Of a stretch of DNA of 64,000 nucleotides, positions 20,501 to 34,574 are shown piece after piece. Source of the stretch: Deferribacterales bacterium Deferri_01 (lineage in GTDB: Bacteria; Chrysiogenota; Deferribacteres; Deferribacterales; Geovibrionaceae); the NCBI GenBank assembly GCA_001603805.1, contig LUZY01000014.1:62001-126000 (forward strand), in the 5' to 3' direction. The notes below the pieces were generated by a model. It saw only the letters and a list, made by a program, of their open reading frames with translations, did not search any database and had not been told where the DNA came from. The translations under genes were made by a program, and so were the position numbers. How positions within the stretch are numbered: position 1 is the first letter of the stretch; every line of letters starts with the position of its first letter.

Positions 20501-20639
20501 TGAAACTGCGGAATGGTGGAGTTCAATGGCAGTTGCCATAATATTCGGGCTGTCATTTGCCACAGTGCTTACCCTTATTGTTGTTCCTGTGCTTTACTCA
20601 TATGCTTCAACAGGAATTTTCAGAAGGAAAAAAGCCTGA
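17550..20639 (+). CDS. RND efflux pump, inner-membrane permease (second system)
   Basis: A 1,029-residue RND exporter. It has TM1 at about 13-30, the porter loop beginning RESDPDITIPYVLVITDYEG, TM2-TM6, a second periplasmic domain and TM8-12. TM4 reads LGMLVDNAIVIVEN: the first proton-relay Asp is present and the second position is Asn instead of the Asp found in the pump at 4,732-7,947. This DN form occurs in many RND subfamilies. LAGVVVNNAIVLIDYANQLR lies near the end. GCGGAG sits 9 bp before the ATG. It converges on the MocR gene with only 9 bp between stop codons and no visible terminator. Confidence 0.94.
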   Translation: MLITDASLKRKSTVFVLMILFVIVGMYSYITLPRESDPDITIPYVLVITDYEGVAPEDVESLITLPIERKLKGIKNVKEIRATSSEGASIIVVEFIADTDIDNAMQWVRDKVDQAKGDLPTDLENDPLIMEINLSEFPIMKIAIHGDVPEYILKDVAEDLKDELESVQGVLEVVINGGREREIRVVFDQERLTAYGLSFSEIAAAVQRENVNIPGGTMDMGGGKYLLRIPGEFKDPAIIDNLVLLARNGKPIYLKDIAHVEDTFEDRESSSRLNGDLAVSIEIKKRAGENIIEVSNHVKQILEIAGTLVPAGVNLTITEDQSDDIRLMVEELENNIMSGLVLVILVLFMFLGKRSSIFVAAAIPFSMLLSFAVLQVMGITLNMVVLFSLILALGMLVDNAIVIVENIYRHIQEGKERDEAVSIAASEVGWPIISSTVTTLCAFAPMLFWPDIMGEFMKFLPLTLIITLTSSLFVALVFNPVICAVFMSKKKEKAYEDTGKDPLFVRMYVKSLDFALRRRWIAVLGAFGGMFVILVLFGAFNSGVELFPDTQPKRAYVAIKAPEGTRLEVTDSYVSIVEQMVMAEKDVKYVIADTGITPSGEEGSSRLSNHGRVSIRFHEKDDREGDSSAVLDRLREQLKFFPGAEIKVEKEENGPPVGDPVSIEIGGEDVGVLERITEQVKAEVKEVYGIVDLKDNLVKSKPEIRVRVDREKAALLGLSTSDISYTLKAAIGGYKLGVYREGEDEYDIMARLPENRRQSVADVANLLVPNSNGDPVPLSEVAQVETGTGYGSIKRKDGKRVVTVSAGVEGRNSNDALQEITQRVAKIELPNGYSIKYSGEQEEQQKATAFLEKAFIIALFLIALVLVTQFNSIRQSGIVLTSVVLSLSGVLMGLLIMRMPFGIIMTGVGVISLAGVVVNNAIVLIDYANQLRASGMDSEEAIRTAGRTRLRPVLLTAVTTILGMLPMATGVSFSFRRLAWEIGSETAEWWSSMAVAIIFGLSFATVLTLIVVPVLYSYASTGIFRRKKA

Positions 20640-20648
20640 AAGATTATA

Positions 20649-22094
20649 TCAGACGGAGCGGTTATTCTGTGCTATGACCGCTTCCGCCGCCATAGCACCG
20701 AGCTTTTTCAATGCTTCGGTATGTTTTTTATCAAGGGGGCTGCCGCAGTTCAGCCGTATGAAGTTTCTGTACCTGTCCTGCGCAGTGAAGAGAAAGCCGG
20801 GAACTGTGCCTATACCCTCTTTTACCGCTGATTCATAAAGCAGAAACGAATCTGTGCCTTCGGGAAGCTCCACCCAGAGTATGAATCCGCCTTTCGGGTT
20901 TGAAACCCTTGTGCCTTTTGGGAAAAAATCAATAATATACGACCTGTAAGCTGCGACCTGATTTCTGTACACTCGCCTGATTCTGTTAAGGTATCTGCTG
21001 TATTTTCCAGAGGCGAGGTAATCGCACAAGGCAAGCTGCGGCAGGCGGGAAGTATCAAGCACAGTGGAGATCTTTTTATCCATAACCTGCTTAAAATATT
21101 TGCCGGGGCATATCCACCCGACCCTGAACGAGGGCGAGATTGTTTTGGTAAATGAGGAAACATAGATCACATTTCCATTCTTATCAAACGATGACAGGCA
21201 CTTAGGTCTGTGCCCTTCATGGCAGAGTTCACCGTAGACATCATCCTCAACAATGGGGACATTCTTCTCTGCACAAATTTCCACAATCCGCTTTTTATCC
21301 TCATCAGGAAGAGTCCCGCCAAGGGGGTTGCTGTAGTTGGGCTGTATAAGAAGTGCCTTAACGCTGTATTTTTCCAGAGCGTCCTTCAGCCTGTCAGGAT
21401 CCATACCGTGATCGGGGCGTGAAGGAACTTCAATGACATACATACCCATTGATTCAAGGGCGTGGAGATGACCGAAATGAAGAGGTGATTCTACCGCTAT
21501 GTAATCTCCGAGTCCGGCGAGAACACGAAGAATATGGCTGAGGCTTTCTGTAGTGCCGGTGGTGATGATAATATCATTAGGGGAAACCTCCACACCTGCG
21601 GAGAGCATATGCATGGAGATGCAGCCCCTGAGCTGGGCATTGCCCCTGAAATCCTCAAATGAGTTGTAGTCGGGGTTATGGTTTAATATATGCTTCATGG
21701 TTTTGGCAAGTTCAGCAGATGGCAGCATAGAGATGCAGGGTGATGCTCCGCCGAACTGTATGAGGCTTCTGTCAGCCATTGCGTTGCATACGTTGTATAT
21801 CATGCTGAATTTATCAACCCTTGCAGCGGTTATTTTTCTTTCGGAGGATATACCCGCCACAGGAATAGAGCTATCGGCGGATACGTAAAAGCCGGACTGC
21901 GGACGTGATTCCAGAATACCCTGATGCTCAAGCTCCACATACGCCTTCATTATGGTGGACACACTCAAGCCTGTGTCAGAACTCATTTTTCTGATCGAAG
22001 GTACTTTGTCTCCGGGTTTAAGCCCGTTTGCGGAGATAATTTTCTTTATGCGGCTTTGGACTTCTTCATATTTATAAACACAGTGTCTATCCAT
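20649..22094 (-). CDS. MocR/GntR-type regulator with aminotransferase domain
   Basis: A 481-residue PLP-dependent transcription regulator of the MocR subfamily. The N-terminal GntR winged helix is at residues about 5-72 (LKPGDKVPSIRKMSSDTGLS, GILESRPQSGFYV). The fold-type-I aminotransferase-like domain is at about 100-470, with IIITTGTTESL, QPNYSNPLGG and the PLP-lysine segment VSSFTKTISPSFRVGW. Such proteins sense amino acids or PLP and often control the divergent gene. Here that is a DUF2917 gene starting 126 bp away. A dyad and direct repeats fill the shared promoter region (22,115-22,164). Confidence 0.92.
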   Translation of the reverse strand: MDRHCVYKYEEVQSRIKKIISANGLKPGDKVPSIRKMSSDTGLSVSTIMKAYVELEHQGILESRPQSGFYVSADSSIPVAGISSERKITAARVDKFSMIYNVCNAMADRSLIQFGGASPCISMLPSAELAKTMKHILNHNPDYNSFEDFRGNAQLRGCISMHMLSAGVEVSPNDIIITTGTTESLSHILRVLAGLGDYIAVESPLHFGHLHALESMGMYVIEVPSRPDHGMDPDRLKDALEKYSVKALLIQPNYSNPLGGTLPDEDKKRIVEICAEKNVPIVEDDVYGELCHEGHRPKCLSSFDKNGNVIYVSSFTKTISPSFRVGWICPGKYFKQVMDKKISTVLDTSRLPQLALCDYLASGKYSRYLNRIRRVYRNQVAAYRSYIIDFFPKGTRVSNPKGGFILWVELPEGTDSFLLYESAVKEGIGTVPGFLFTAQDRYRNFIRLNCGSPLDKKHTEALKKLGAMAAEAVIAQNNRSV

Positions 22095-22114
22095 AATTCT
22101 TCTCTCTGTAAAAA

Positions 22115-22164
22115 ACTGTTATGTATACATTTCAAAAAAACTGTAACTGTTATTATATACAGTT
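22115..22164. promoter_or_regulatory. Putative MocR operator: direct repeat plus dyad
   Basis: Two near-identical boxes, ACTGTTATGTATAC (22115-22128) and ACTGTTATTATATAC (22146-22160), are spaced 31 bp start to start, about three helical turns. The second is embedded in an inverted repeat, AACTGT-N8-ACAGTT (22145-22164). Direct-repeat boxes of this kind are typical of MocR/GntR operators, and the site lies between mocR and the divergent DUF2917 gene. Confidence 0.5.
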
Positions 22165-22219
22165 TTATTATATTAATTTTCCAACGTAAAGATCAAAAAT
22201 AGATAAGGAGGGCGCAGGG

Positions 22220-22447
22220 ATGAGCGTGAAAAGTTTCAGAATGACTCTTGGGAAAGATAAGATGATGTCAGTAAACGGTATTAAAAGCGCAGACCTGTCC
22301 TGTGAGAAAGGCAAACTCTGGATAACCGGAACAAGGGAAGGAGATATTATGCTCACAGGCGGGCAGAAGATCAGCCTTCGTCCTGTTGATGCCCTGGTCA
22401 TTCAGAGCGGAAGAGAAGATTCACATTTTACAATGGAAGTAAGGTAG
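22220..22447 (+). CDS. DUF2917 domain protein
   Basis: A 75-residue protein with the DUF2917 pattern: a short all-beta, cupin-like unit with GKLWITGTREGDIMLTGGQK and ISLRPVDALVIQSG. Function is unknown, but such proteins are often encoded next to transcription regulators. Here it is divergent from a MocR regulator whose operator lies between the genes. A strong AAGGAGGG ribosome-binding site lies 7-14 bp upstream of the ATG. It converges with the small Cys-rich gene at 22,453. Confidence 0.75.
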   Translation: MSVKSFRMTLGKDKMMSVNGIKSADLSCEKGKLWITGTREGDIMLTGGQKISLRPVDALVIQSGREDSHFTMEVR

Positions 22448-22452
22448 CTTTT

Positions 22453-22623
22453 TTAGCTGCCGGAGCTTATTCGCTGCGCTGTTTCAGCGGCACTGCACCC
22501 GTGTTTTACGGAGGAGCAGTTTCCGCATGAGCCGCCGCAGCCGCTTCCGGGTTTTGTATAGTGTCTGTAAAGGTAAACCGCCGCAGCCGTTATTATTGAT
22601 GCTGTAATAATTATATCTGCCAT
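22453..22623 (-). CDS. FeoB-associated Cys-rich membrane protein
   Basis: A 56-residue open reading frame, MADIIITASIITAAAVYLYR at the N-terminus: one transmembrane helix, then a Cys-rich tail GSGCGGSCGNCSSVKHGC. This matches the FeoB-associated cysteine-rich membrane protein family, small proteins encoded in Fe(II) transport operons. It starts 10 bp after the end of feoA and is read in the same direction. No feoB lies between or beside them in this window, which is unusual for the family. Confidence 0.75.
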   Translation of the reverse strand: MADIIITASIITAAAVYLYRHYTKPGSGCGGSCGNCSSVKHGCSAAETAQRISSGS

Positions 22624-22633
22624 TGTGTCCTTC

Positions 22634-22918
22634 TTATCTGTGTCTGCCGTGTCTGTGTCTGCACGGAGTTATGTTAATTTTGCTGGAGAGGCTGCCGCAC
22701 AGGCAAAGCCTGCTTCCTTCCAGATCCACTGTGACGTTACCGTCACCCGCTTCCTCAACTACTTCAAGAGTGCGCCCTTTTATAAAGCCGTAGTCTATCA
22801 GCCTGCGCACAGACTGCCTGTCGCAGCATTTGCAGAAGCCGGATATCTCACATTTCTCTCCTTTTTTAGCATCAGAGAGACATAATATGCCTTCATCATT
22901 AATCAGGTTGCTGCACAT
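22634..22918 (-). CDS. feoA: FeoA domain protein (Cys-rich)
   Basis: A 94-residue FeoA-type SH3-like protein, an accessory of the Fe(II) GTPase transporter FeoB: LIDYGFIKGRTLEVVEEAGD, then VDLEGSRLCLCGSLSSKI. It carries an unusual cysteine cluster near the N-terminus (CEISGFCKCCDRQS), seen in a subset of FeoA proteins from anaerobes. ATG at 22918 is preferred: GGAG (complement of 22928-22931) is 9 nt upstream, whereas the TTG start at 22924 would be only 3 nt from it. The FeoB-associated gene follows at once, and fur is divergent about 230 bp away. Confidence 0.82.
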   Translation of the reverse strand: MCSNLINDEGILCLSDAKKGEKCEISGFCKCCDRQSVRRLIDYGFIKGRTLEVVEEAGDGNVTVDLEGSRLCLCGSLSSKINITPCRHRHGRHR

Positions 22919-23146
22919 ATTCAAACACTCCGAAAGGGTAAAAACCCAGTTGTTTAGTATTATATTGTAATCTATTAACTTAGTTTGTCAATGTGAACAT
23001 CATGAGTGTTGAAAAAGCCGTAAATAAAATATTTTCAGAGAATTTGAAAACAACAAAAAAATATTGATTATTTCTACTAAAACTAATAAGTTTTTAAAAG
23101 AGGCTGTTGATATGCGGTCTTAATACACAAGAAGACGGTTGTTATT

Positions 23147-23590
23147 ATGAAAAAAGAAACAAAAAACCTTGCCCTTAAAAGGCTTTCTGCGTATTTGTCA
23201 GAAAAGAAGCTCCGTGCGACAAGCCAGAGGGAAATCATTCTCGGCACATTTATTGACATGGGTAAGCACACCACAGCAGAAGAGCTTTACGAAGCACTGA
23301 AAAAATTTGACTCAAGCATCGGTCATGCTACAGTCTACCGTGCCCTGAGACTCTTTGTGGATGCGGAAATAGCCCGCGAACTTAACTTTAATGACGGTTC
23401 CGTACGCTATGAAAGTATTGTCGGAAAAGAGCCCCATGATCACATTATCTGCAAAAAATGCGGCGCAATGGTGGAATTTCTTGATGAAAGCATCAGGCAG
23501 GCGCAGGACGAAATTGCAAAAAAATACGGATATGCACTGAAAAACAGGAGCCATATACTCTTCGGTGTATGTCCCAAGTGCCGCAGATAA
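23147..23590 (+). CDS. Fur family transcriptional regulator
   Basis: A 147-residue Fur/PerR-family metalloregulator. The winged helix is at residues about 10-85 (LRATSQREIILGTFIDMGKH, IGHATVYRALRLFVDAEIA). The metal-binding dimer domain has HDHIICKKCGAMVEF and the C-terminal GVCPKCRR. The two CxxC pairs form the structural zinc site. Which metal or oxidant it senses is not decidable from sequence alone. Its neighbours are feoA (divergent) and mntP (downstream), consistent with iron and manganese homeostasis. Confidence 0.9.
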   Translation: MKKETKNLALKRLSAYLSEKKLRATSQREIILGTFIDMGKHTTAEELYEALKKFDSSIGHATVYRALRLFVDAEIARELNFNDGSVRYESIVGKEPHDHIICKKCGAMVEFLDESIRQAQDEIAKKYGYALKNRSHILFGVCPKCRR

Positions 23591-23619
23591 GCGTTCTGTA
23601 ATTAAATTTCCGTATAATA

Positions 23620-23721
23620 ACATCAGGCGGATTTTTTATATCCCGATCCGTATTAAGGGTTTTAAAGGGTTGAAAGATTCCGTCTGATGTCATATTCTTA
23701 CTCCGCAAAATCCTTACGGAG
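23620..23721 (+). promoter_or_regulatory. Structured mntP leader that hides the ribosome-binding site
   Basis: A 12-bp stem (ACATCAGGCGGA at 23620-23631 with TCCGTCTGATGT at 23679-23690, one G-U pair) encloses 47 nt. A second hairpin pairs CTCCG (23701-23705) with CGGAG (23717-23721), and this CGGAG is the Shine-Dalgarno of mntP (ATG at 23727). An alternative pairing of CGGAT (23628-23632) with ATCCG (23646-23650) would break the long stem. The layout resembles an aptamer plus a translational switch. The conserved core of the yybP-ykoY manganese riboswitch was not found. Confidence 0.45.
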
Positions 23722-23726
23722 CAGTC

Positions 23727-24290
23727 ATGACCTTTATAGAAGTTTTCTGGATAGCGGTGGGTCTTTCAATGGACGCATTCGCTGTATCTATAGCTTGCAG
23801 TGTTCTTTTATGTCATGTGTCTTTCAGGCAGATTTTCCGGCTCGGTTTCCACTTCGGACTTTTTCAGGCGCTGATGCCCGTTGTGGGCTGGCTTGCAGGA
23901 AGGAGCGTGAGCGAATATATCAGTGCATGGGATCACTGGGTGGCTTTCGGTCTGCTTGGGCTTATAGGTCTGAAGGCCATAAGAGAATCTTTTAAGTCCG
24001 GTGATGAAGATGACGTTAGAGGCGACCCGACGAAGGGGATGAGCCTTATTATGCTCTCTGTTGCCACAAGTATAGATGCTTTGGCTGTGGGAGTAAGCCT
24101 TGCTGCTGTTAATGTAAGCATCTTTCAGCCCGCCCTTATTATAGGAATCATCACCGCCTGTTTTTCCGTTGTAGGTACAGTTTACGGCTGTCGGATCGGG
24201 GCTCGTTTCGGCAAAAAAGTCGAGGCCGCCGGCGGAATAATACTTATTCTTATTGGTCTTAAAATCCTGCTGGAACACACAATATTCTAA
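23727..24290 (+). CDS. mntP: MntP-type manganese efflux pump
   Basis: A 187-residue, six-helix inner-membrane protein of the MntP (DUF204) family, which exports Mn(II). The duplicated signature is clear: GLSMDAFAVSIACS in TM1 and ATSIDALAVGVSLA in TM4, each with the conserved Asp. GLFQALMPVVGWLAG and a final GGIILILIGLKILLEH are also typical. It follows fur by 136 bp, and the gap carries a structured leader that sequesters its ribosome-binding site. Confidence 0.92.
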   Translation: MTFIEVFWIAVGLSMDAFAVSIACSVLLCHVSFRQIFRLGFHFGLFQALMPVVGWLAGRSVSEYISAWDHWVAFGLLGLIGLKAIRESFKSGDEDDVRGDPTKGMSLIMLSVATSIDALAVGVSLAAVNVSIFQPALIIGIITACFSVVGTVYGCRIGARFGKKVEAAGGIILILIGLKILLEHTIF

Positions 24291-24330
24291 AATAACCCTT
24301 AACCTCCCCCAACCTCCTTTAAGTTTTTTC

Positions 24331-24363
24331 TTGACTGTCGCTATATACTGATCTATATAGCGA
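24331..24363 (+). promoter_or_regulatory. Sigma-70 promoter overlapped by a perfect ModE box
   Basis: TTGACT (24331-24336), a 17-bp spacer and TATATA (24354-24359) form a near-consensus promoter. A perfect 26-bp inverted repeat, TCGCTATATA-N6-TATATAGCGA (24338-24363), covers the spacer and -10. It matches the ModE operator consensus (CGnTATATA-N6-TATATAnCG type). A ModE dimer bound there would block RNA polymerase. A weaker dyad, CGTTAT-N12-ATAACG (24369-24392), lies in the leader. A ModE-family gene lies downstream in the same locus at 28,279. Confidence 0.85.
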
Positions 24364-24407
24364 TTAATCGTTATGTGCCGAGGGGAATAACGTTTCGGAG
24401 AGGTTAA

Positions 24408-26426
24408 ATGATAAGACAAGGCAAAATTTTGACAGCCGCCGTGATTGGTGCGGCATTCATGTTCGGGGCTGCTTCAGCGAAAGCAGAAGATGAGCGCATT
24501 TACAAACTTGGTGAAATCGAGATAACAGACTCAGTTTCATGGGTTAATTCAAAACCCATGCAGGAAGTGTCGTCTGAAGAGTTTGAAGCAGGGTCGGCTA
24601 CGAGCGTTTCAGAAGCACTTGAGCAGCTTCCTTCTGTTAATTTTACTCCCAATTCAAAAGGAGAGAAGCGTCTCAATATCAGAGGCTTTTCAGACAGATA
24701 CATTCAGGTTTACTTTGACGGTATTCCCGTTGCCCTGCCCTATGAAGCTTATATAGATTTGGGCAACTACAATACTTTCGGTATTGATAAGATAGAGCTT
24801 GAAACAGCCGGCGGTTCAGTTCTTTTCGGACCTAATGCGGCAGGCGGTGCGGTGAATATAGTTACAGCGAAGCCGAATAAGCCTTTTGAATCAGCTATAG
24901 AGTTTATGTACAAAAGCGGCGACACCTACCAGACAAGGATAGGTCTGGGGAGCAAAATAGGCAAAGCTTACGGCATGCTGTCTGTTGCGTATGAAGATTC
25001 CGACGGCTTTGAACTTCCCAGCGGGTATGATGAACGTAATGAAAACGGCGGGCTTCGTGACAACTCCGGCTACTGGAGAGGAACAATCACAGGTAAAGTC
25101 GGCTATGAGTTTGCCAAAGGCAGTGAAGTTGCTTTCGGTATAAACCACATTAACAGCAGCCTTGAACTTCCTCCCAATACCAAAGAAATAGACAACGGAA
25201 AAAATAACAGTCCTGTGCGTTACTGGAATTACGAAGAATGGGACAAGGACACCTATTACCTTCTGGGCAGTGTAAGAAAAGATAAATACGCAGTAACAGC
25301 AAGACTCTATAGAGATGAATACTATAACGTCATGAACCGTTATAAGGATAATACTTACACAGAATGTCTGAGCCCTTCATGGTGCAACAGCGCATATGAC
25401 GACTATTCCAACGGTGTAATTGTCAACACTGAGATCAAAACAGGTGCAATAAACACTGTGATCCTCAGCGGTCAGTATAAGAAAGATGTACATAAAACAA
25501 GAAATGACAAAACTCCCGAATGGGAAAAAGACGTGGCGGAAACTTACTTCGCAGGTATAGAGGACAGACTTACGCTTGGTAAATTCATCATCAGCCTCGG
25601 CGGCAGCTATGAAGTAAACAACGCCATATCCTCCGACAGCGAAGAGGAGCTTAATGACGATATAAAAGTTTTTAACCCGCAGGCAACTGTAATTTATAAT
25701 ATGTCTCCCAACACGATCTTACATGCAAAAGCGGCACGCAAAACCCGTTTTCCTTCAATGAAGGAGCTTTACTCAAGCTACTCATACAACAACGGCGGGC
25801 AGACAACATATTTTGCAAACTCTGACCTTAAAGAAGAAAAAGCCATGAACTATGAAATAGGTATTAAACAGACACTGTTCGATACTGTTCTTGTTCAGGC
25901 TAATGTTTTCTACTCAAAAATAGACGACAAGATTAACACTAAAGCTGCATACACAGGCAATGACCCGAACGCTTCAGCAGATGCACAGACATCAGACAAC
26001 ATTGATGATGTGACCATGCAGGGATTTGAAGTAATGCTCGGAGGAGATTTTACAAAAAACACCACCACAATAGCTTCATATGCTTACATTGATGCTGAGA
26101 AAAGTATCGAAGGCGACGACTCTGACATAGTTGCCGATGTCCCCGAACACAAATTCTATCTGGATCACTCATACAGAATAGGCAAAATTTTTGTTCTCGG
26201 CGGCAGAATTAATATGGAAAAAGGACGCTATTCTCAGAAATCCGATTACAGCTACAAAGAGCTTGATACATACTGGACAGCGGATCTCAGAGCTGAGGTT
26301 TCACCTTTGAAATACACTTCCATAGAGGTTGGTGTGGAGAATGTGGCGGATGAAGAATATGAGCTTTCATACGGTCTGCCTCAGGCGGGAAGAACATACT
26401 ACGCAAAGCTTAAAATGAAAATATAA
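24408..26426 (+). CDS. TonB-dependent outer-membrane receptor, ModE-box controlled
   Basis: A 672-residue TonB-dependent transporter. The signal peptide runs to about residue 27 (ASAKA|ED) and a TonB-box-like stretch is GEIEITDS. The plug domain is at about 45-165 (VSEALEQLPSVNF, KRLNIRGFSDRYIQVYFDG, GSVLFGPNAAGGAVNIVTAK), followed by a 22-strand barrel ending RTYYAKLKMKI. The C-terminal residue is Ile rather than the usual Phe. The substrate is not evident from the barrel, but the promoter is covered by a ModE box. The next gene starts 2 bp after the stop, and a ModE regulator follows. A molybdate or tungstate complex (or metallophore) is therefore the best inference; siderophore uptake is the alternative. 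Confidence 0.9.
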   Translation: MIRQGKILTAAVIGAAFMFGAASAKAEDERIYKLGEIEITDSVSWVNSKPMQEVSSEEFEAGSATSVSEALEQLPSVNFTPNSKGEKRLNIRGFSDRYIQVYFDGIPVALPYEAYIDLGNYNTFGIDKIELETAGGSVLFGPNAAGGAVNIVTAKPNKPFESAIEFMYKSGDTYQTRIGLGSKIGKAYGMLSVAYEDSDGFELPSGYDERNENGGLRDNSGYWRGTITGKVGYEFAKGSEVAFGINHINSSLELPPNTKEIDNGKNNSPVRYWNYEEWDKDTYYLLGSVRKDKYAVTARLYRDEYYNVMNRYKDNTYTECLSPSWCNSAYDDYSNGVIVNTEIKTGAINTVILSGQYKKDVHKTRNDKTPEWEKDVAETYFAGIEDRLTLGKFIISLGGSYEVNNAISSDSEEELNDDIKVFNPQATVIYNMSPNTILHAKAARKTRFPSMKELYSSYSYNNGGQTTYFANSDLKEEKAMNYEIGIKQTLFDTVLVQANVFYSKIDDKINTKAAYTGNDPNASADAQTSDNIDDVTMQGFEVMLGGDFTKNTTTIASYAYIDAEKSIEGDDSDIVADVPEHKFYLDHSYRIGKIFVLGGRINMEKGRYSQKSDYSYKELDTYWTADLRAEVSPLKYTSIEVGVENVADEEYELSYGLPQAGRTYYAKLKMKI

Positions 26427-26427
26427 G

Positions 26428-28056
26428 ATGTCACTAACCGACAGTAGCGACACTAAATGGAGAAAGGGAGCCATAGCGGGGGGCGTCTGGGGGACCTCCG
26501 AGATGACCCTCGGCTCTTTTCTTCATAACTTACGGATTCCGTTTAAAGGGCATATCCTGACGGCAATCGGCATAGCCATACTGAGCGCTTTCGGAATGAA
26601 ATGGCGCACAAGCGGCATGTTTTACAGGGCAGGGCTTACCTCAGCAATGCTTAAGGCATTTTCGCCCAGTCCTAAAGTCGTTGTCCCGATGGTGGCAATA
26701 ACAATAGAAGGCTTTCTGTTTGAGCTTGGTACACGCATTCTGGGGAGGAACGTCATAGGCTTCCTTGTCAGTGGCGGGCTTGCAATGCAGTGGGCGGTTC
26801 TCCATAAGGTTATAAGGCTTCTTATATTGTACGGAGCCAGCATATATACTGTCTATGAACAGCTTTTTGAAAAAGCGGCAACAGGGCTTGAACTTCCTTT
26901 TATCAACCCTGTGTACGGCATTGTTTTTGTGTTTGCACTGAGTTTTGCTGTAGGCGCCGGAGCATCCGCAGTGGGGTGCGCCGCAGCGGCAAAGAGCAAT
27001 GGAAGTGATGAACCCATAACCTTCGGGGACAGGCAGACGGCTCCCGCCGGCACTATGATGCAGGGCTGTGCGGGGCGCCACTCGCTCCTGTGGCTTCTGC
27101 TGCATATAGCAGTTATTGCCGTTGTTGTGGGTTTTATGGATAAAAGTGAGTGGCTCGCATACATTCTGCTGGTTTACTCACTGGCTGTCTCAGTAAGGTA
27201 CAGAAACTTTCTGAAGCGGTTTGCATCGTGGAAGATATGGCTTCCAATATTTGTAATATCATTTGTATCAGGCTTTGTGTTGAAGTCTCCGGAAGGAAAG
27301 TTCATCAGCACGCCGGGTTTTCTTGAGGGGATAAGGCTTGCAGTGAGAGCTTTTGTTACCACATGCGCTCTCAGCGGTTTGGTCTCGGAGATGGGGCATC
27401 CGCTTATAGCCGGTTTCTTCCGCCGCAGATACGGGGACAGGATAGACTCCGTACTGTCTGTAGCGTGGGGTACTGTGAACACTGTTGCTCCAAGCGTAAA
27501 GGTGAGAACATTGATAAAAAACCCTGTGAAGGGCATCGCCGGAATGATGGATTCTGTTCTTTCTTCAGATAGAAAGAGGGCAATTCTTATCACCGGGGAA
27601 GTTAACGGAGGCAAGACAACTTTTCTCAAGGCCTTCCTCAGCACACTGCCTTCGGATGCGGAAGTCAGAGGTTTTGTGGCGGAAGCTGTTTTTGAGGATG
27701 GAACAAAGACAGGATACAGCATAACAGATGTCCGCACAGGAGAAAGTGCTGAACTGTGCAGACGCACAAAGGACGGCTTCTATTTTGAACCCGCAGGGCT
27801 TGCCTTCGGTGAAAAATGTATGGGTGAAGCGCCTTATAAAAATATGTACGCTGTTTTTGATGAGGTCGGTCACTACGAAATGAGGGGCGGCGGGTGGGAC
27901 ACTTTAATAAAGAAAGTCACCGCCGGCGGTGCTGCTCCGGTTATTGCGGTCAGGCGCAGTCTCGTGGATAAGGTTTGCGGGCGTTACGGTCTTGTAAACG
28001 CAGAAATATATGATGTTGATAATATAAAAGTGCAGGCTGCTGAGTCTGCCGTATAA
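26428..28056 (+). CDS. Membrane protein fused to a THEP1-like P-loop NTPase
   Basis: A 542-residue protein starting 2 bp after the receptor stop, so probably translationally coupled. The N-terminal half is a polytopic membrane module (GGVWGTSEMTLGSFLHNLRI, then hydrophobic segments near 40-60, 85-105, 108-125 and 165-190) that resembles an ECF-type substrate-binding component. A second membrane block (about 215-355) loosely resembles an EcfT-like component (ends at ALSGLVSEMGHPLIAGFF). The C-terminal domain (about 383-535) is a THEP1/DUF2478-type nucleoside triphosphatase: Walker A GEVNGGKTTFL near residue 390 and DEVGHYEMRGGGWD near 477. Family roles are inferred. Together it looks like a one-polypeptide energised importer or chaperone for the receptor's cargo. 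Confidence 0.7.
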   Translation: MSLTDSSDTKWRKGAIAGGVWGTSEMTLGSFLHNLRIPFKGHILTAIGIAILSAFGMKWRTSGMFYRAGLTSAMLKAFSPSPKVVVPMVAITIEGFLFELGTRILGRNVIGFLVSGGLAMQWAVLHKVIRLLILYGASIYTVYEQLFEKAATGLELPFINPVYGIVFVFALSFAVGAGASAVGCAAAAKSNGSDEPITFGDRQTAPAGTMMQGCAGRHSLLWLLLHIAVIAVVVGFMDKSEWLAYILLVYSLAVSVRYRNFLKRFASWKIWLPIFVISFVSGFVLKSPEGKFISTPGFLEGIRLAVRAFVTTCALSGLVSEMGHPLIAGFFRRRYGDRIDSVLSVAWGTVNTVAPSVKVRTLIKNPVKGIAGMMDSVLSSDRKRAILITGEVNGGKTTFLKAFLSTLPSDAEVRGFVAEAVFEDGTKTGYSITDVRTGESAELCRRTKDGFYFEPAGLAFGEKCMGEAPYKNMYAVFDEVGHYEMRGGGWDTLIKKVTAGGAAPVIAVRRSLVDKVCGRYGLVNAEIYDVDNIKVQAAESAV

Positions 28057-28059
28057 AGA

Positions 28060-28225
28060 GCTTTGCCGGCGGAGGTTCTGCTTCCTGCATTTTGTCAGAA
28101 TCCTTGCCGGCACAAGAAAACAGCGGAACTGGGGGTTCCGTTGCCGTAACACTCATAAGCAGGTACACAGGGCGGCGGAGCGGAAGCATGAGTTCCTCGT
28201 CTCAGAAGCAAATGCTCCGCCTCCT
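28060..28225. other. Intergenic region with several hairpins before modE
   Basis: The 222-bp gap between the NTPase fusion and modE holds a series of stems. TGCCGGC repeats enclose TTCTG/CAGAA (within 28062-28115). CGGAAC-N5-GTTCCG lies near 28124-28140. GGCGGAGC (28174-28181) pairs with GCTCCGCC (28214-28221). No convincing gene was found on either strand and no known riboswitch core was recognised. It may be a structured leader of modE or mRNA-stabilising elements. Confidence 0.35.
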
Positions 28226-28278
28226 TCTGCTCTTCTGTCTTCACAAAAGTTTTATACGACAATTCCAGTGAGTGTGTA

Positions 28279-28659
28279 ATGAAAAAAAACGGTTATGAAA
28301 TCTCTTTTTCCAGAACAGCGGGCGATAATGTCCTTGGCGGAAGAATATGGATAGACAAGCAGGGCAGAAACTTCATTGGTCTTGGCAAAATAGTTTTTTT
28401 GGAGGCGATCAGGGAACACGGGTCAATCTCCGCTGCTGCTTCCTCACTTAATATGTCATACCGTAAAGCATGGGGGCTGGCACAGAGTATAAACGCCCTG
28501 TCCGATGAGCCTCTTGTAACAAAACAGGCAGGCGGTGCCGGCGGCGGCGGGGCGGAACTCACCGAAGAAGGTGAGAGAGTTATCTCGCTTTACTGGGATA
28601 TCTGCCGCAAGTTTGAGAAGTTTCTGGAAGTACAGCAGGAATTGATAGAGAGGTTCTGA
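28279..28659 (+). CDS. ModE family regulator (DNA-binding domain only)
   Basis: A 126-residue winged-helix protein of the ModE N-terminal type. IWIDKQGRNFIGLGKIVFLE leads to the helix-turn-helix HGSISAAASSLNMSYRKAWG. The family-typical glycine-rich wing follows (AGGAGGGGAELTEEGERVI). The C-terminal molybdate-binding TOBE (di-Mop) domains of E. coli ModE are absent. Short ModE forms are known in many bacteria, and how they sense molybdate is less clear. It should act on the palindrome at 24,338-24,363 that drives the receptor and NTPase-fusion genes. The ribosome-binding site is weak. Confidence 0.9.
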   Translation: MKKNGYEISFSRTAGDNVLGGRIWIDKQGRNFIGLGKIVFLEAIREHGSISAAASSLNMSYRKAWGLAQSINALSDEPLVTKQAGGAGGGGAELTEEGERVISLYWDICRKFEKFLEVQQELIERF

Positions 28660-28670
28660 TTTTTATCGGT

Positions 28671-28700
28671 TTGACTTAATTCCACATATGGGATTATCAT
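28671..28700 (+). promoter_or_regulatory. Candidate promoter of the kinase gene, possibly leaderless
   Basis: TTGACT (28671-28676), an 18-bp spacer and TATCAT (28695-28700) lie so close to the ATG (28707) that transcription would begin at or next to the start codon. No Shine-Dalgarno is visible. Confidence 0.35.
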
Positions 28701-28706
28701 TCATCC

Positions 28707-30536
28707 ATGAGCAAAAAGCTGGCAATATGGATAAGCGTTTTGGTGACTGTTGTTCTTGTGTTCTCCACGGGAGTTTATTATTCACAGTCGCAGAAGGCAG
28801 TTCTTTTTGAGATACAAAAACGTGCCGCCGAACTCTTAAGGGCGGACAAGCGTACCGTGTCCGATTTTCTGGGGCATATCCGTTCCGTAACCTACGGTCT
28901 TTACACAAACCCGATAAACAGCCGTTTCATCTTCCACGGAGAAGGAAAAGCAAAGGCGGAAAGCCTTTTTATGGACTACTGCAACAACGTCCGTGAGGTA
29001 CAGGCTATCAGGCTTGTAGACAAGGACGGCAGGATTCAGGTCTTTATGAGAGAATGCGAAAACCTGTCCGGTGAAGCAGATTACGAACCTATAGATATTT
29101 CATCTAAAGACTTTATACAGGACGCAGCCGAACTGGACAGACCTGATATTCTCTTCAGCAAGTTTGAGCGGGGCTTTCTGCCGGATGCTGTGAGCTTCTG
29201 CCCCTCTATGATACGTACCGTTGTCCCTTATTTTGCAGGGGGTGAGCATGCGGGCTATCTGGTGGTGAATTACTGGGGCGAGCGTTTGGGCGAGGTTGTG
29301 AACAGGCTGAACAACGATGAGGGGCACGCCTTTATTGTTGAGAAAAACAAAATCAATCCTGACCGGCACGGAATTTTCCTTTTCCACAGAAACAAAAGCT
29401 ACGAGTTCGCAAATCAGATGCAGCATAGCCACCGCTTTCAGACTGTTTACGGCGAAGATGTCTTTGATGAACTAGTCAAAGGGCTGGACGGCATAATCCG
29501 GCTTAAAAACGGTGATTTTCTTGGCTATACTACGGTTTATCCATACGAAGGGACTGATATTTCCTGGAAAGTCTGCACTGTGATAGATGCCAAGTACGCC
29601 TTCCGCAATCTTCAGGCACTTAAGATGGGCTTTATCCTTGTTCTGTCTCTTTCTGTATTTCTTGCGGTCTTGACAGCATTTATATTTGCAGAAAGATTCC
29701 TCCGCCCTCTTGGCGGGCTGAAAACCGCTCTGGAAAGCTACGGCAGGGGCGAACTGGACTATGAGATAAAAGAAAAATATACTGACGAACTGGGCGATAT
29801 TGCTGAAAAAGTGCAGGAGATGGCACATTCTCTGCGAAGGTACATCGGTGAGCGTGAAACATCGCAGAAAAGGATGGAGCTTGCTGACAGGCTCTCATCA
29901 TTAAGTATATTAAGCGCAGGGGTTTCCCATGAGCTTTCGACTCCGCTGAATTCTATTCTTCTTGCTGCTACACTGCTGGAGAAACAATACGGGCTCAGTG
30001 ATGAGGTGCAGGCGGTTAAAACTCAGGCTGAAAGATGCGTGGAGATAATAGCCTCAATGAAACGCCTCGTGGCGGACGGGTATGACAGCTGCACAAAGGA
30101 ACGGCTGAACCTGAAGGAGCTTGTGAGCGAGGCTGTGCGCTTTATGCGTGCCGGCGGCGGAGTGGTGATAGAAACCAGGCTTGAGGATGCATACATAGAA
30201 GGCTGCCGGACTCTTCTGAATCAGGCATTTCTGAATATAGCGGTAAATGCTGTTGATGCTGTCTACCCCGAGGGCAGGGTGGTTTTTCGTCTGTTTAGGG
30301 ATAAAGGGAAAGTTATACTGGAAGCGGAAGACAACGGAAGCGGAATAGAGCCGGAGAAGCTTGAAAAAATATTCGACCCGTTTTTCACCACGAAATCACC
30401 GGATAAGGGAACTGGGCTTGGGCTCTCCATAACTCACAGGATAATCACCGAACACGGCGGCAGGATAAGTGTTAAAAGCGAAAAAGGGAAAGGGACATCC
30501 ATAAGGTGTGAATTTAATGAAAGTAGTGATAGTTGA
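28707..30536 (+). CDS. Membrane sensor histidine kinase (partner of NtrC-type regulator)
   Basis: A 609-residue kinase. TM1 is at about 5-25 and a large periplasmic double-Cache-like sensor spans about 30-300 (VQAIRLVDKDGRIQVFM; VVPYFAGGEHAGYLVVNYWG). TM2 is at about 308-330, and HAMP follows at about 330-385 (FLRPLGGLKTALESYGRGEL). The phospho-His box is GVSHELSTPLNSILLAAT (about 409-425). The ATPase domain has NAVDAV (N box), DNGSGI (G1) and GTGLGLS (G2). The downstream NtrC-type regulator gene overlaps its 3' end by 20 bp, so the two form one two-component system. The likely target is the sigma-54-dependent cytochrome gene at 32,667. Confidence 0.92.
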   Translation: MSKKLAIWISVLVTVVLVFSTGVYYSQSQKAVLFEIQKRAAELLRADKRTVSDFLGHIRSVTYGLYTNPINSRFIFHGEGKAKAESLFMDYCNNVREVQAIRLVDKDGRIQVFMRECENLSGEADYEPIDISSKDFIQDAAELDRPDILFSKFERGFLPDAVSFCPSMIRTVVPYFAGGEHAGYLVVNYWGERLGEVVNRLNNDEGHAFIVEKNKINPDRHGIFLFHRNKSYEFANQMQHSHRFQTVYGEDVFDELVKGLDGIIRLKNGDFLGYTTVYPYEGTDISWKVCTVIDAKYAFRNLQALKMGFILVLSLSVFLAVLTAFIFAERFLRPLGGLKTALESYGRGELDYEIKEKYTDELGDIAEKVQEMAHSLRRYIGERETSQKRMELADRLSSLSILSAGVSHELSTPLNSILLAATLLEKQYGLSDEVQAVKTQAERCVEIIASMKRLVADGYDSCTKERLNLKELVSEAVRFMRAGGGVVIETRLEDAYIEGCRTLLNQAFLNIAVNAVDAVYPEGRVVFRLFRDKGKVILEAEDNGSGIEPEKLEKIFDPFFTTKSPDKGTGLGLSITHRIITEHGGRISVKSEKGKGTSIRCEFNESSDS

Positions 30537-31800
30537 GGACGATAAAACCCTCTGCGGGCTGCTGAAAAAGAGCCTTGAAAATGAATTTAACGTTACTGCA
30601 TTTTACGAACCGGAAAAAGCTCTGGCACACATAAAGAGCGCCGGGACTGATGCCGTGGTGTCTGACGTGCGAATGCCGGGGATGACGGGCTTTGAACTTC
30701 TGGAGGCTCTTCGAGAGGATATGCCGGAGGTGCGCCTTATCCTCATGACAGGCTATGGGACAGTCACGGAATCCGTAAACGCAATCAAAAGCGGCGCATA
30801 TGACTACATCCTTAAGCCCGTTGATCCTGACATACTCATAAAAAAGCTCGATCAGATACGCACCCTTCTGGACTTTGGCAGACAAAGTGCCGGAAGCTTC
30901 GCACCTATATTTAAATCAAGAAAATTTGACGATATAATGCAGCTTGCCGCCCGTGCCGCAAAGGCAGACAGCGGTGTTTTGATCACAGGCGAGACAGGGA
31001 CAGGCAAAGAGGTCATCGCCCGTTTTATCCACGGGGTTTCTTCCCGCAAGACAGCCCCTTTTATTGCGGTAAACTGCGGAAATATGCAGGAGCAGCTTTT
31101 TGAAAGTGAGCTTTTCGGCTATCGAAAAGGGGCGTTTACCGGAGCTGATACAAATAAACGGGGTCTTGTTTCCGCTGCTGAAAGGGGCACTCTGTTTCTT
31201 GATGAAATAGGTGAGCTTCCCCTGCCCTCACAGTCGAAGCTGCTTCGTTTTATAGAAACAAGAACCTACTATCCCCTTGGCTCAGTGGAGCCTAAGACGG
31301 CAAATGTGCGCTTCATAGCCGCAACAAACCGCAACCCAGCCGAAGAAGCTGAAAACGGTACTTTCAGAAAAGACCTTTATTACAGGCTGAATGTGGTTGA
31401 GATCAAAGTTCCGCCACTCCGTGACAGGAAAGAGGATATTATGCCTCTTGCAGAACATTTTCTCGGCAGGTTCCGTCATATTAATCCTAAAATTGAAGGT
31501 TTTTCCCCTGATGCAGTTCAGGCTTTGGAAAACTATTCTTATCCGGGAAATGTGCGTGAGCTTTCAAATATAATAGAGCGTGCCGTGATTCTTGAAACAG
31601 GGCACAGAGTGTCTCCGGCATCACTCCACATGACAGGTTCGGCGGAACGGACCGTTTCAAAAAAGCTGGATGATGTTGTGCGTGAGCATATACTCGCTGC
31701 TCTGGCTGAAGCGGGCGGAAGCAAGGCGAAAGCAGCGGAGATTCTGGGAATCGACGCCTCCACAATCTACCGCAGACTCAAGGAATACGGTATAAACTAA
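30517..31800 (+). CDS. Sigma-54-dependent response regulator (NtrC family)
   Basis: A 427-residue activator in three parts. The receiver is at about 1-120 ([18 protein letters not shown] with phospho-Asp, YILKPVDP). The AAA+ sigma-54 interaction domain is at about 135-365 (Walker [10 protein letters not shown], the GAFTGAD loop in [16 protein letters not shown], Walker [14 protein letters not shown]). A Fis-type helix-turn-helix is at the C-terminus ([22 protein letters not shown]). ATG at 30517 is chosen because MKVVIVEDD is the natural receiver start; the in-frame GTG at 30508 would add only three residues. It overlaps the kinase gene and probably binds the twin palindromes at 32,493-32,528. 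Confidence 0.93.
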
Positions 31801-31921
31801 AGAGTATTCGTATTCTTGAAATTGTCAGCCTTACACATCTGTTAGTAAATACCTAAAAAGTGCGTACTTTAATTTTGCAGCTAAGTGAATATATTTTTGT
31901 GAAAAAAACGGGAGAATACGT

Positions 31922-32467
31922 ATGAAGAATATTCTTGTACTTACAGGAAGCCCCAGAAAGGGCGGAAACAGCGATCTGCTTGCAGATGCCTTCATTAAAG
32001 GAGCAGAAGAAGCAGGGCATAAGGTGAGCAAGTTTGCCTCAGCAGAAAAGAAGATAGCCGGATGCCGTGCCTGTGACAAATGCTGGACAACGGGAACAGC
32101 GTGTATTTTTCCCGATGACTTCAGGGAATTAGCTCCTTTGGTGGAGGAAGCGGATACATTGGTTATTGTTTCTCCTGTTTACTGGTTTACAATGTCTGCA
32201 CAGATAAAAGCTGCAATAGACAGGCTTTATGCTTATTACACTCCGAATAGAAAAAAAGACCTTAAGCTCACAGAAACTGTTCTGCTCTCCTGCGCTGCGG
32301 ATGAGCCCAGTGTGTTCAAAGGGCTGGAGGAGACCTATAAGTCCCTGCTAGCATACACAGGATGGAAGGATGCGGGTATCATAACAGTGCCCGAAGTCTC
32401 AGATAAAGGTGACATACTTAAAACAGGTGCGTTAACAAAAGCAGAAGAGCTTGGAAAAAGTATCTGA
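31922..32467 (+). CDS. Flavodoxin-fold NAD(P)H-dependent FMN reductase / iron-sulfur flavoprotein-like
   Basis: A 181-residue flavodoxin-like protein. The FMN phosphate loop is LTGSPRKGGNSDLLADAF, then a Cys-rich segment CRACDKCWTTGTACIFPDDF (about 49-68) and a second flavin-binding stretch TLVIVSPVYWFTMSAQIKAA. The CxxC-x6-C spacing resembles the cysteine cluster of archaeal/anaerobe iron-sulfur flavoproteins, though it is not the exact compact motif. It probably transfers electrons from NAD(P)H in the cytoplasm; the substrate is unknown. GGGAG lies 8 bp before the ATG. It sits between the two-component genes and the sigma-54 promoter. Confidence 0.82.
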   Translation: MKNILVLTGSPRKGGNSDLLADAFIKGAEEAGHKVSKFASAEKKIAGCRACDKCWTTGTACIFPDDFRELAPLVEEADTLVIVSPVYWFTMSAQIKAAIDRLYAYYTPNRKKDLKLTETVLLSCAADEPSVFKGLEETYKSLLAYTGWKDAGIITVPEVSDKGDILKTGALTKAEELGKSI

Positions 32468-32528: not shown

Positions 32529-32614
32529 GATTCCTATATAAAAACTAGTCTTTCTGCACCTGATAACCTGTTTATAAATCATGTTTTTTCATAAGTTTAT
32601 CTTTTGCCCTTCCG

Positions 32615-32630
32615 TGGCATGTTCATTGCT
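32615..32630 (+). promoter_or_regulatory. Sigma-54 (-24/-12) promoter
   Basis: TGGCAT-N5-TTGCT, with GG (32616-32617) and GC (32628-32629) exactly 10 bp apart, matches the RpoN consensus TGGCAC-N5-TTGCW. Transcription should start near 32,641, upstream of the GGAGG ribosome-binding site (32652-32656) and the ATG at 32667. Confidence 0.85.
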
Positions 32631-32666
32631 CAATACAAAGCAAGCATACACGGAGGTTTATTAAAT

Positions 32667-34574
32667 ATGAAGAAACTCATAATAGTCTGTTTTATGACTC
32701 TTTTCTGTTTCGGTGTTGTGCAGGCTGCGGAACAGTCTTCCTGCATTTCATGTCACGGAAACAAAGCGGAAATGGAAAAACTCGGTTACCCCCAGCTTTA
32801 TCTTGATCCTGTTGAAGTTGAAAAAGAGGTCAACATGGGTGAGGTTGCCTGTGAGGACTGCCATATGGGAAACCCTGCTGAAATGACAGCAGAAAAAGCC
32901 CACGAGGGAATGCCCCGCCCCTTTTACGCTGCTGCCGGCAAAACCCTTAAGTATCAGGCAGTGGGCAGAGAGGTCACAAACTATGACCCCATACAGCCCA
33001 AAGGTAAGGAACGCTTTAAGTTCCTCATGAGAAAACCTGATCCTCAGCAGGCAAAAGAGAAAGGCATAGCTGTTCTCGCACAGCTTTACTACCATGACCA
33101 CGATCCCGAAACCATGGCGTATGATCCTTCCGTTGCGGAAAAAACATGCGGAAAATGCCATGAAAACGAAGTTAAGGAATATAACGTTTCCGGTATGGGT
33201 CTGAACAAGTATCAGAGAGGCTTCACAAACTTCAGCGACCTGAAACCCGGCCCTCAGAACTGTGGTGCTTGGTTCGGCGATAACCATGACAAAATAGGTG
33301 CAGAGCTTGCCGTTGAGTATCCCAAGGCGCATGGGGACGGCTCGGCAAGAGGCTGCAACAAATGTCATGCAAGCTGTAATGACTGCCACTATAAAGGTTA
33401 TGAAAAATCAAACGCACGCCACGTTTATCAGAAAGATCCCGAACCTCTTTCATGCTACGGAAGCGGTAAAGGTACAATCTGCCACGCCGGACCAATGGAC
33501 AGAAGAAGAGGCGCAGGCTACATGAGAGAGGAATTCGCATTCCCTATACATGAACTCGCTGAAGATGTTCACGCTAAAAACGGAGTAACCTGCAACGATT
33601 GTCATAAAATGGAGAGCCACAGTTACGGGCATCTCAGTTCGCAGTCCGCACGGGAATCATGCAAAAACTGCCACGAAGAAATATATAACGCAGCCCTCGA
33701 AAGCCCGGATCACGGCAATGTAGATTGTACATCCTGCCATATTCAGGCTGTAGGGGCTTACCAGTTTACTTTCTGGGGTCCCGGAAAGCAGGAAGCACAG
33801 GTTAAAGCCCTTGCAAAACATAAAGAATATTACGGCACAAGAAGCCAGCCCACCCTCGTAAAGCATCCCGAAAGAGGAGTATGGATTCCCATGAAACCCT
33901 ACCCCATGGGAGTTCTCAACATGAAGGATGATGTCAAGGGAGTGAACAAGCTGATTCTTCGTGAGATTGAACCCACTATGGTGAAAGGAAACGCCAAGAT
34001 CGGCGAGCAGGACTTCACTCTTGAAAGAAAACCCGATGAAGTGAACGACATGTACATCATGAACGGCACGTATAAGCTGAAAAAGAACAATAAGATGCTT
34101 GCATGGATTCAGATGGATAAAATGAGCCACTCCATAGGCGAAGCAAGAAACTGCGACTCATGCCACTCTTCACACGATCAGATTGCTACCTCATGGTGGA
34201 CATACGATGCTTCTAATGATGTCAAGAAACCCTTTAACGGCAGCTACATAATCCGCGGAACCAAAAAGGGTCTGTTCTTCACCGACTGGAAGTACGAAAC
34301 TCCTGAACCCGCAGCAGGGATGGACACAGAGGATTTTATGCCCTTCATCAATTCCGGCAATGTTTGGGATACCAAAGGCATAGACTTTTCAATACCCTTT
34401 GATGATAAGAAATATGCTGATGCCAGAAGTGATTATGAACTTCTTTACGGAAAACTCCATGGTCTTGAGCAGCAGTATGCGAAGGATCAGGCAAAACTTG
34501 ATACTATCAAGCTTGCCAGAAAGATACTTCCCCACAACCCGAAAAAAGCCGCAGAGATGGTAAGCGGTTTTTAA
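32667..34574 (+). CDS. Periplasmic multihaem cytochrome c (nine CxxCH plus one CX8CH), sigma-54 dependent
   Basis: A 635-residue exported cytochrome: signal peptide MKKLIIVCFMTLFCFGVVQA, then nine CxxCH motifs (CISCH, CEDCH, CGKCH, CNKCH, CNDCH, CNDCH, CKNCH, CTSCH, CDSCH). Two of these are almost contiguous (CNKCHASCNDCH). An extra CYGSGKGTICH has eight residues between the cysteines and may be an atypical haem site, as in sulfite reductase MccA, which uses a longer spacing. The C-terminal 150 residues are haem-free. Related proteins include octahaem oxidoreductases of the HAO/OTR/MccA group and ExtKL-type electron-transfer cytochromes; which one is undecided. The start is fixed by GGAGG and by the sigma-54 promoter lying downstream of the longer ORF start. 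Confidence 0.88.
   Translation: MKKLIIVCFMTLFCFGVVQAAEQSSCISCHGNKAEMEKLGYPQLYLDPVEVEKEVNMGEVACEDCHMGNPAEMTAEKAHEGMPRPFYAAAGKTLKYQAVGREVTNYDPIQPKGKERFKFLMRKPDPQQAKEKGIAVLAQLYYHDHDPETMAYDPSVAEKTCGKCHENEVKEYNVSGMGLNKYQRGFTNFSDLKPGPQNCGAWFGDNHDKIGAELAVEYPKAHGDGSARGCNKCHASCNDCHYKGYEKSNARHVYQKDPEPLSCYGSGKGTICHAGPMDRRRGAGYMREEFAFPIHELAEDVHAKNGVTCNDCHKMESHSYGHLSSQSARESCKNCHEEIYNAALESPDHGNVDCTSCHIQAVGAYQFTFWGPGKQEAQVKALAKHKEYYGTRSQPTLVKHPERGVWIPMKPYPMGVLNMKDDVKGVNKLILREIEPTMVKGNAKIGEQDFTLERKPDEVNDMYIMNGTYKLKKNNKMLAWIQMDKMSHSIGEARNCDSCHSSHDQIATSWWTYDASNDVKKPFNGSYIIRGTKKGLFFTDWKYETPEPAAGMDTEDFMPFINSGNVWDTKGIDFSIPFDDKKYADARSDYELLYGKLHGLEQQYAKDQAKLDTIKLARKILPHNPKKAAEMVSGF

Follow-up and report, generated by a model that had tools for sequence, protein, structure and literature searches.

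A One-Chain, ECF-Like Membrane Protein with a THEP1 NTPase as a Candidate Importer of the Molybdenum Cofactor

Introduction

ECF transporters are made of an S component, EcfT, and the ABC ATPases EcfA/A'. The protein described here resembles them in its S-component fold, in what is probably a T-like scaffold extended by cytosolic helices, and in a cargo that is likely to be of the cofactor type; it differs from them in that its S, T, and NTPase parts lie in one chain, its NTPase is of the THEP1 and not the ABC type, its gene is paired with that of a TonB-dependent receptor, and the ARG-type motif of EcfT is absent. Since the defining ABC ATPases are missing, membership of the ECF transporters is not claimed, and the fusion protein probably works like one. 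The second comparison is with the THEP1/NTPase_1 family (COG1618; aaTHEP1, 1ye8; human NTPCR, 2i3b), with which the C-terminal domain shares its fold, its Walker motifs, and a PF03266 score above the cut-off, the difference being that the NTPase is here joined to a membrane transporter. The parts cited here of the papers on THEP1 and HCR-NTPase (PMC1079890, PMC2700126) describe these enzymes without a settled role in vivo.

A third comparison concerns the organisms with orphan molybdoproteins. According to the portion of the 2018 survey cited here (PMC6147048), several hundred genomes encode enzymes of the DMSO-reductase or XO family together with an incomplete pathway for the molybdenum cofactor (Moco) and, mostly, no known molybdenum transporter; unknown biosynthetic parts or molybdenum-free enzymes were proposed there. 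The same pattern of enzymes without a pathway is met below, where the S-T-THEP1 module offers the import of the cofactor instead. DUF364, with a predicted pterin- or flavin-like ligand, is placed by the cited part of PMC2954201 in the context of Mo, W, V, and Fe transporters, including molybdate/tungstate ABC importers; the DUF364 partner and the molybdenum context are common to both, the transporter being an ECF-like S-T-THEP1 module here and an ABC system there. In C. elegans, mature dietary Moco passes from bacteria to worms and crosses membranes by a mechanism that the cited sections of PMC9793310 call unknown; the passage of Moco through a membrane is alike, but theirs is an animal system with no known gene, and no sequence link is claimed. 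Some outer-membrane proteins of the T11SS may serve in molybdopterin uptake, as the cited part of PMC12282271 has it. Among the matches listed in the literature on Moco import, salvage, or auxotrophy, no described Moco importer was found.

The reading put forward here, to which we give an even chance, is that the fusion protein, as a one-chain, ECF-like transporter with THEP1 in place of the ABC ATPases, imports the molybdenum cofactor as molybdopterin that probably carries Mo; both the transport and the ligand are what we infer from the evidence below.

The Fusion Gene and Its Surroundings

The window, that is, the whole stretch of 64,000 nucleotides analysed, contains the following features:

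24408..26426, + strand: TonB-dependent outer-membrane receptor, 672 aa (PF00593 at 5.5e-35, PF07715 at 6.2e-19)
26428..28056, + strand: S-T-THEP1 fusion protein, 542 aa, in a single open frame
26437..27015, + strand: S domain (residues 4-196) with predicted ECF S-component fold (own model, VIA, invariant columns)
27067..27564, + strand: T-like domain (residues 214-379), a candidate assignment (secondary structure, hhalign to CbiQ, PF02361 below cut-off)
27580..28050, + strand: THEP1/NTPase_1 domain (residues 385-541; PF03266 at 3.9e-11, VIA)
27595..27618, + strand: Walker A, GEVNGGKT (residues 390-397; sequence and alignment of relatives)
27847..27864, + strand: Walker B, YAVFDE (residues 474-479; sequence and alignment of relatives)
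28279..28659, + strand: ModE-type winged-helix regulator without a MOP domain, 126 aa (TIGR00637 at 3e-24, PF00126)

A preliminary description of this DNA had seen two membrane blocks and a P-loop NTPase in one polypeptide, and this is borne out by the open frame of 542 aa, by the two Walker motifs, and by the AlphaFold2 model of the whole chain (66 relatives aligned; mean pLDDT 84.5, pTM 0.69), which has helical membrane blocks at residues ~4-189 and 220-378 followed by a C-terminal alpha/beta domain. The gene is present as a single copy in its own genome, and the plasmid collection contained no relative. An artefact of assembly or a frameshift can be dismissed because all the parts lie within one ORF at 68 of the 76 further loci where a target ORF was called.

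The stop codon of the receptor gene lies 1 base ahead of the start codon of the fusion, and the order is the same in the relatives G001, G002, and G005. The ModE-type gene begins 222 bases downstream of the fusion and scores 84.9 bits with TIGR00637, against a curated cut-off of 98.5; apart from this ModE-like regulator, the operon in the window has no Moco gene. Immediately ahead of the receptor gene (22634-24290) are genes for a FeoA-like protein, for Fur, and for the manganese-efflux protein MntP. Positions 32604-34574 encode a protein of 656 aa whose many CxxCH motifs make it a probable multihaem cytochrome. Rfam gave no match at positions 20000-32000 of the window and only tRNA in 11 loci, so that no Moco riboswitch was found there.

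The genome to which the window belongs has MoaC, MoeA, and ModB, the gene for the last being on another contig, and a strong ModB match was found in 12 of the 12 tested genomes of its genus and family. That this genome and its close relatives make Moco and possess ModB counts against the reading as a cofactor importer. A simple replacement of ModABC was rejected for this lineage, since it has ModB. The fusion protein itself contains no domain of the ModABC type (ABC ATPase, ModB-type permease, or binding protein).

Two further observations come from the relatives. In G002, of the same genus, the fusion is cut to ~35 codons in frame with the downstream tonB (L007 1501-2361), the receptor is intact, and the Moco genes are present; this natural loss, too, counts against that reading. 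In Seleniivibrio relatives, a gene for a class I methyltransferase adjoins the fusion (L013 8610-9401, L014, L015, and L016 6756-7547); in L016 it directly follows tonB.

The Three Domains

When the S domain was folded alone (residues 4-196), the model reached a pLDDT of 90.9 and a pTM of 0.86. Compared by VIA with 313 chains, it had 5edl at the top (Z 14.5, 166 aligned residues, rmsd 3.1), then TmRibU (5kbw, Z 10.0) and the pantothenate S subunit (4rfs, Z 8.7), the next row being Lnt at Z 7.9; helical bundles may attain such Z values through a shared arrangement. With Foldseek alone, 5edl was sixth (E 2.3), and it was VIA that moved it to first. In the structure search with the whole chain, P-loop matches dominate and mask the S fold, which became visible only once the S domain was folded alone. 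Three ECF S subunits rank first and the domain is covered, and on this model the S domain is an ECF S-component fold, as the preliminary description had supposed of the first block. The invariant columns contain the motif W-x3-E-x3-G-x2-L-H-N-x3-P. Sequence methods recovered less: Pfam gave Trep_Strep in 3 and ABC_cobalt in 2 of 39 S rows, all below cut-off, while a PDB sequence search found nothing with the S profile or the T profile and weak matches, none meaningful, with the whole fusion protein.

The second block had been taken for a T component, and here the evidence divides. In the AlphaFold2 whole-chain model, the region consists of membrane helices and then cytosolic helices that run into the NTPase; R307-A308, E321, and P325 are invariant. 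The alignment of this block to that of CbiQ by hhalign was weak (E 4.6e-4, 33% probability), yet none of the 12 unrelated membrane families compared alongside did better than 0.06, and a second comparison gave the same ranking; against this, PF02361 (CbiQ) matched 5 of 37 T rows under cut-off (best 0.034), whereas the unrelated TgpA_N was commoner in Pfam (22 of 37, best 6.6e-5). The S and T parts are two modules, since they are separate genes in L129-L131. The coupling motif of EcfT is AR[GS]; it is missing from the window protein and occurs in only 3 of 66 relatives (residues 200-380). The profile comparison and the architecture are what mainly and weakly point to a CbiQ/EcfT-like block.

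For the C-terminal domain, PF03266 (NTPase_1/THEP1) scores 43.5 bits against a cut-off of 23.9 (3.9e-11), and VIA places the domain on 1ye8 (Z 15.9) and on the human relative 2i3b (NTPCR, Z 15.3). G395, K396, D478, and E479 are invariant across the 66 aligned relatives, 61 of which fit GxxxxGK[ST] and 64 of which fit a hydrophobic-DExG pattern. Walker geometry had thus been rightly expected, and of the double label THEP1/DUF2478 the first half stands; the second was rejected, as PF10649 (DUF2478) gives 12 bits against a cut-off of 22.3. For DUF2478, 23.1 bits are obtained with a standalone relative in L094. There is no ABC ATPase domain in the fusion, nor was one found among the neighbours scanned.

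Distribution and Gene Arrangements

A scan for relatives of the membrane part, with one genome per species, found 231, of which 80 were kept. Nearly all of these are labelled Bacteroidota; the others are three of the Seleniivibrio type and one each from Elusimicrobia, Alphaproteobacteria, and a record named only "bacterium". The nearest relatives in the scan are the named Seleniivibrio records, which also cluster with the window protein in the S-domain tree; the host of this protein belongs with the Seleniivibrio-like Deferribacterota. The 76 loci that are not of the Seleniivibrio type comprise 68 with the full fusion, 7 without the NTPase in the same ORF, and 1 cut by the end of a contig. Counts of neighbours refer to 76 of the 77 loci L023-L099 (L081 is without a called target ORF), with L020-L022 omitted as copies of L013-L015.

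The same parts also occur in other arrangements. THEP1, MobA, and S-T are three genes in L038, L057, L087, and L094; an S-T gene (353-365 aa) and a THEP1 gene (155-162 aa) form a pair adjoining a Psr-like molybdoenzyme cluster in L139, L143, and L144, and L145 has a similar pair; NapA, NapGH-like genes, S, T, and a TonB receptor lie in a row in L129-L131; and L132-L134 have a reversed one-chain fusion, NTPase-S-T. In the S-domain tree, where the deep branches are long, the THEP1/MobA/S-T set is nested among the fused proteins, and the reversed fusion has a clade of its own, which means at least two fusion events between NTPase and transporter, with opposite domain orders.

Beside the S-T/THEP1 pair, the cluster in L135, L137, L139, L143, and L144 consists of a Psr-like molybdoenzyme, a ferredoxin, an NrfD-like protein, and a YeeE/YedE-like protein; in L146, the position of the molybdoenzyme is occupied by a multihaem cytochrome. 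In G016 (L018 7012-13047), genes for DUF364, a standalone THEP1, BtuF-like binding proteins, an FecCD permease, an ABC ATPase, and TonB are clustered, an ABC importer thus accompanying these partners instead of S-T. Given this FecBCD-type ABC importer, DUF364 and THEP1 may serve metal-chelate import generally.

These arrangements bear on what THEP1 does. That the NTPase energises import, as the preliminary description had suggested without naming a cargo, is plausible, the two opposite-order fusions and the adjacent gene pairs speaking for it and the S-T genes of L129-L131, L056, and L177, which have no NTPase gene beside them, speaking against it. Another possibility, which we consider real but less than even, is that THEP1 is not a motor at all and handles the imported cofactor, for example, in a nucleotide-dependent release or modification, with S-T working alone or using an ABC ATPase encoded elsewhere. 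Those same solitary S-T genes would suit such a role, as would the THEP1 gene beside the complete importer of G016 and the description of a human THEP1 relative as slow in the cited part of PMC2700126. It is harder to reconcile with the two opposite orders of fusion that bind THEP1 to S-T, with the scarcity of the EcfT coupling motif, and with the absence of CbiQ/EcfT from 6 of the 7 non-Deferribacterota carriers searched, which hence probably have no ECF ATPase to share. We keep THEP1 as the probable motor of import.

Molybdenum Genes around the Module

The neighbours found across the loci include DUF364 proteins, ModE-like regulators, MobA/MocA, and molybdoenzymes. In 24 of the 76 loci, a co-directional DUF364 gene lies immediately upstream, mostly with an overlap of 4-20 bases. 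A Mo-related gene lies at most three genes away in 36 of the 76 (22 of the 76 if DUF364 is not counted), MobA or MocA is present in 12 of the 76, and ModE-like regulators adjoin the module in 8 of the 76, all outside the window. Mo-related genes made up 71 of the 398 genes within three positions versus 0 of the 229 at five or more positions, a comparison that leans towards the near count, since the clusters around the target had served for choosing the families. When ten neighbours and pathway genes were scored with NCBIfam, the best models were MobA, a MocA-type cytidylyltransferase, a PhsA-type enzyme, and NapA, all under cut-off; a neighbour in L090, a molybdopterin-dependent aldehyde oxidoreductase, was over its cut-off.

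One explanation of this context is ecological: the membrane part and THEP1 might import an unrelated cargo, such as an iron or heme chelate or another vitamin, with the molybdenum genes nearby only because of anaerobic respiration. The receptor of the window does score best with models of siderophore and heme receptors (under their cut-offs), a Fur gene lies upstream, and some carriers, several of them without Moco genes, have no molybdenum gene close by. Nevertheless, this explanation seems improbable in view of the near and distant counts above, with their bias of selection, and of the position of MobA/MocA, which act on molybdopterin, beside the module in those 12 loci and in the tandem of G238 described below.

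Molybdoenzymes without Cofactor Synthesis

A genome-wide comparison was made with 148 genomes of the phylum Bacteroidota at a completeness of at least 95%; PF00384 at 1e-40 or better defined a molybdoenzyme-positive genome, the weaker matches, possibly NuoG, being dropped. The fusion profile identified 18 carriers, MoaC was found in 85 genomes, PF00384 at this threshold in 37, and a ModB-type match in 53 (44 over cut-off). The module was present in 7 of the 8 molybdoenzyme-positive, MoaC-negative genomes (G113, G121, G137, G157, G188, G222, G230, and G238) versus 6 of the 29 MoaC-positive ones (Fisher p=0.0011, post hoc and with kinship ignored). G222 is a carrier through its NTPase only; with S-T genes alone counted, the figures were 6 of 8 versus 5 of 29 (p=0.004). 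When the main comparison was repeated with PF00384 at 1e-30 and 1e-22, the p-values were smaller than 0.0011.

The fusion profile does not detect divergent S-T genes, among them the one in G238, which encodes a 358-aa S-T protein, is followed at once by a MobA gene, and is separated by several kb from a nitrate reductase operon. This came from a scan of 315 genomes, at most two candidates being scored per genome, of which only positive matches, chiefly G238, were used; the inclusion of G238 gives 8 of 8, a post hoc figure for which the MoaC-positive genomes were searched less hard. G230 and G238 each lie on one contig (3.74 and 3.67 Mb, close to the size of the whole genome), so that missing sequence is an unlikely cause of the absence of MoaC. 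Since the eight MoaC-negative genomes have modules of different types (reversed fusion, forward fusion, S-T pair, and separate S and T), the pattern is not the history of one clade. Over the whole sample, a strong molybdoenzyme match was found in 13 of 18 carriers versus 24 of 130 non-carriers (p=8e-6). G113 and G157 are MoaC-negative carriers that retain MoeA, while in G125 and G184, which have the module, no match to MoaC or PF00384 passed the thresholds, xanthine-dehydrogenase-type enzymes being outside the genome-wide search; these two also count against the reading. MoaE in the joined query was uninformative, as it missed many genomes with MoaC and MoeA.

In the named collection, 31 of the 49 carriers have MoaA at 1e-40; most carriers thus make Moco, which counts against the reading as a cofactor importer. 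Fifteen of the 49 have neither MoaA at 1e-40 nor any MoaC or MoeA match, many of them being MAGs that may be incomplete, so that this second set carries less weight. Many Bacteroidota carriers also encode a short MoaA-like radical SAM protein of ~266 aa that matches mainly positions 1-199 of the MoaA model (for example, L171 10245-11045 and L172 8967-9767).

The chief rival to cofactor import is that the machine takes up molybdate, tungstate, or a Mo chelate by a TonB-dependent metallophore route, under ModE-like control, as an alternative to ModABC. This would fit the ModE-type regulators beside the gene in the window and in the 8 other loci, and it would fit the ModB counts, since ModB is over cut-off in only 5 of the 49 carriers of the named collection; in the 148-genome sample, the corresponding figures are 1 of 18 carriers versus 43 of 130 others. 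The association of DUF364 with molybdate and tungstate transporters in the cited part of PMC2954201 also favours it. However, the metal alone would be useless to the carriers that have none of MoaA, MoaC, and MoeA, and all 12 tested genomes of the window's genus and family already have a strong ModB. Molybdate, moreover, is small enough for porins and should need no receptor. We consider metal import unlikely. The presence of the module where molybdoenzymes are found but MoaC is missing suggests that the distribution favours the cofactor over the metal as cargo. Because some genomes without MoeA and MoaC keep the module, the cargo is, for them, most likely already metal-bound; and the MobA or MocA gene next door fits a mononucleotide rather than a dinucleotide form of it.

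A Possible Import Pathway

The steps of Moco import by this module might be as follows. The TonB-dependent receptor, to judge from the gene order, would move the cargo over the outer membrane, after which the S domain, whose fold is that of an S component, would bind it in the inner membrane. The T-like domain would hold the S domain, and its cytosolic helices could transmit movement to the NTPase, where hydrolysis of NTP by THEP1 would reset the transporter. DUF364, going by its place in the gene order, may receive or chelate the cargo. Where MobA or MocA adjoins the module, it would use the Mo-molybdopterin brought in to make the guanine or cytosine dinucleotide form, and this cofactor would then serve nitrate reductases and enzymes of the DMSO-reductase or xanthine-dehydrogenase type. 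In genomes without Moco synthesis, the importer would be the sole source of the cofactor; in the genome of the window, it would be supplementary because that genome makes its own.

A stronger form of this proposal, which we advance tentatively and rate somewhat short of even, is that the TonB receptor together with the one-chain, ECF-like transporter powered by its THEP1 NTPase would be the first dedicated Moco importer, and that Bacteroidota and their relatives could thus run molybdoenzymes of nitrate, sulfur, and purine/aldehyde metabolism with no cofactor synthesis of their own beyond the final step by MobA or MocA.

Significance

If true, the union of an S-component scaffold with an NTPase outside the ABC type would add a new means of powering import of the ECF type, and it would give a working role to the THEP1 proteins, whose function is unsettled and which are present in humans too (NTPCR). 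A Moco importer, if true, could explain those bacteria that have molybdenum enzymes but no synthesis of the cofactor. Once defined, such an importer would make the questions of the orphan molybdoproteins and of the passage of Moco from bacteria to worms directly testable, and it would imply that the cofactor is shared in anaerobic communities.
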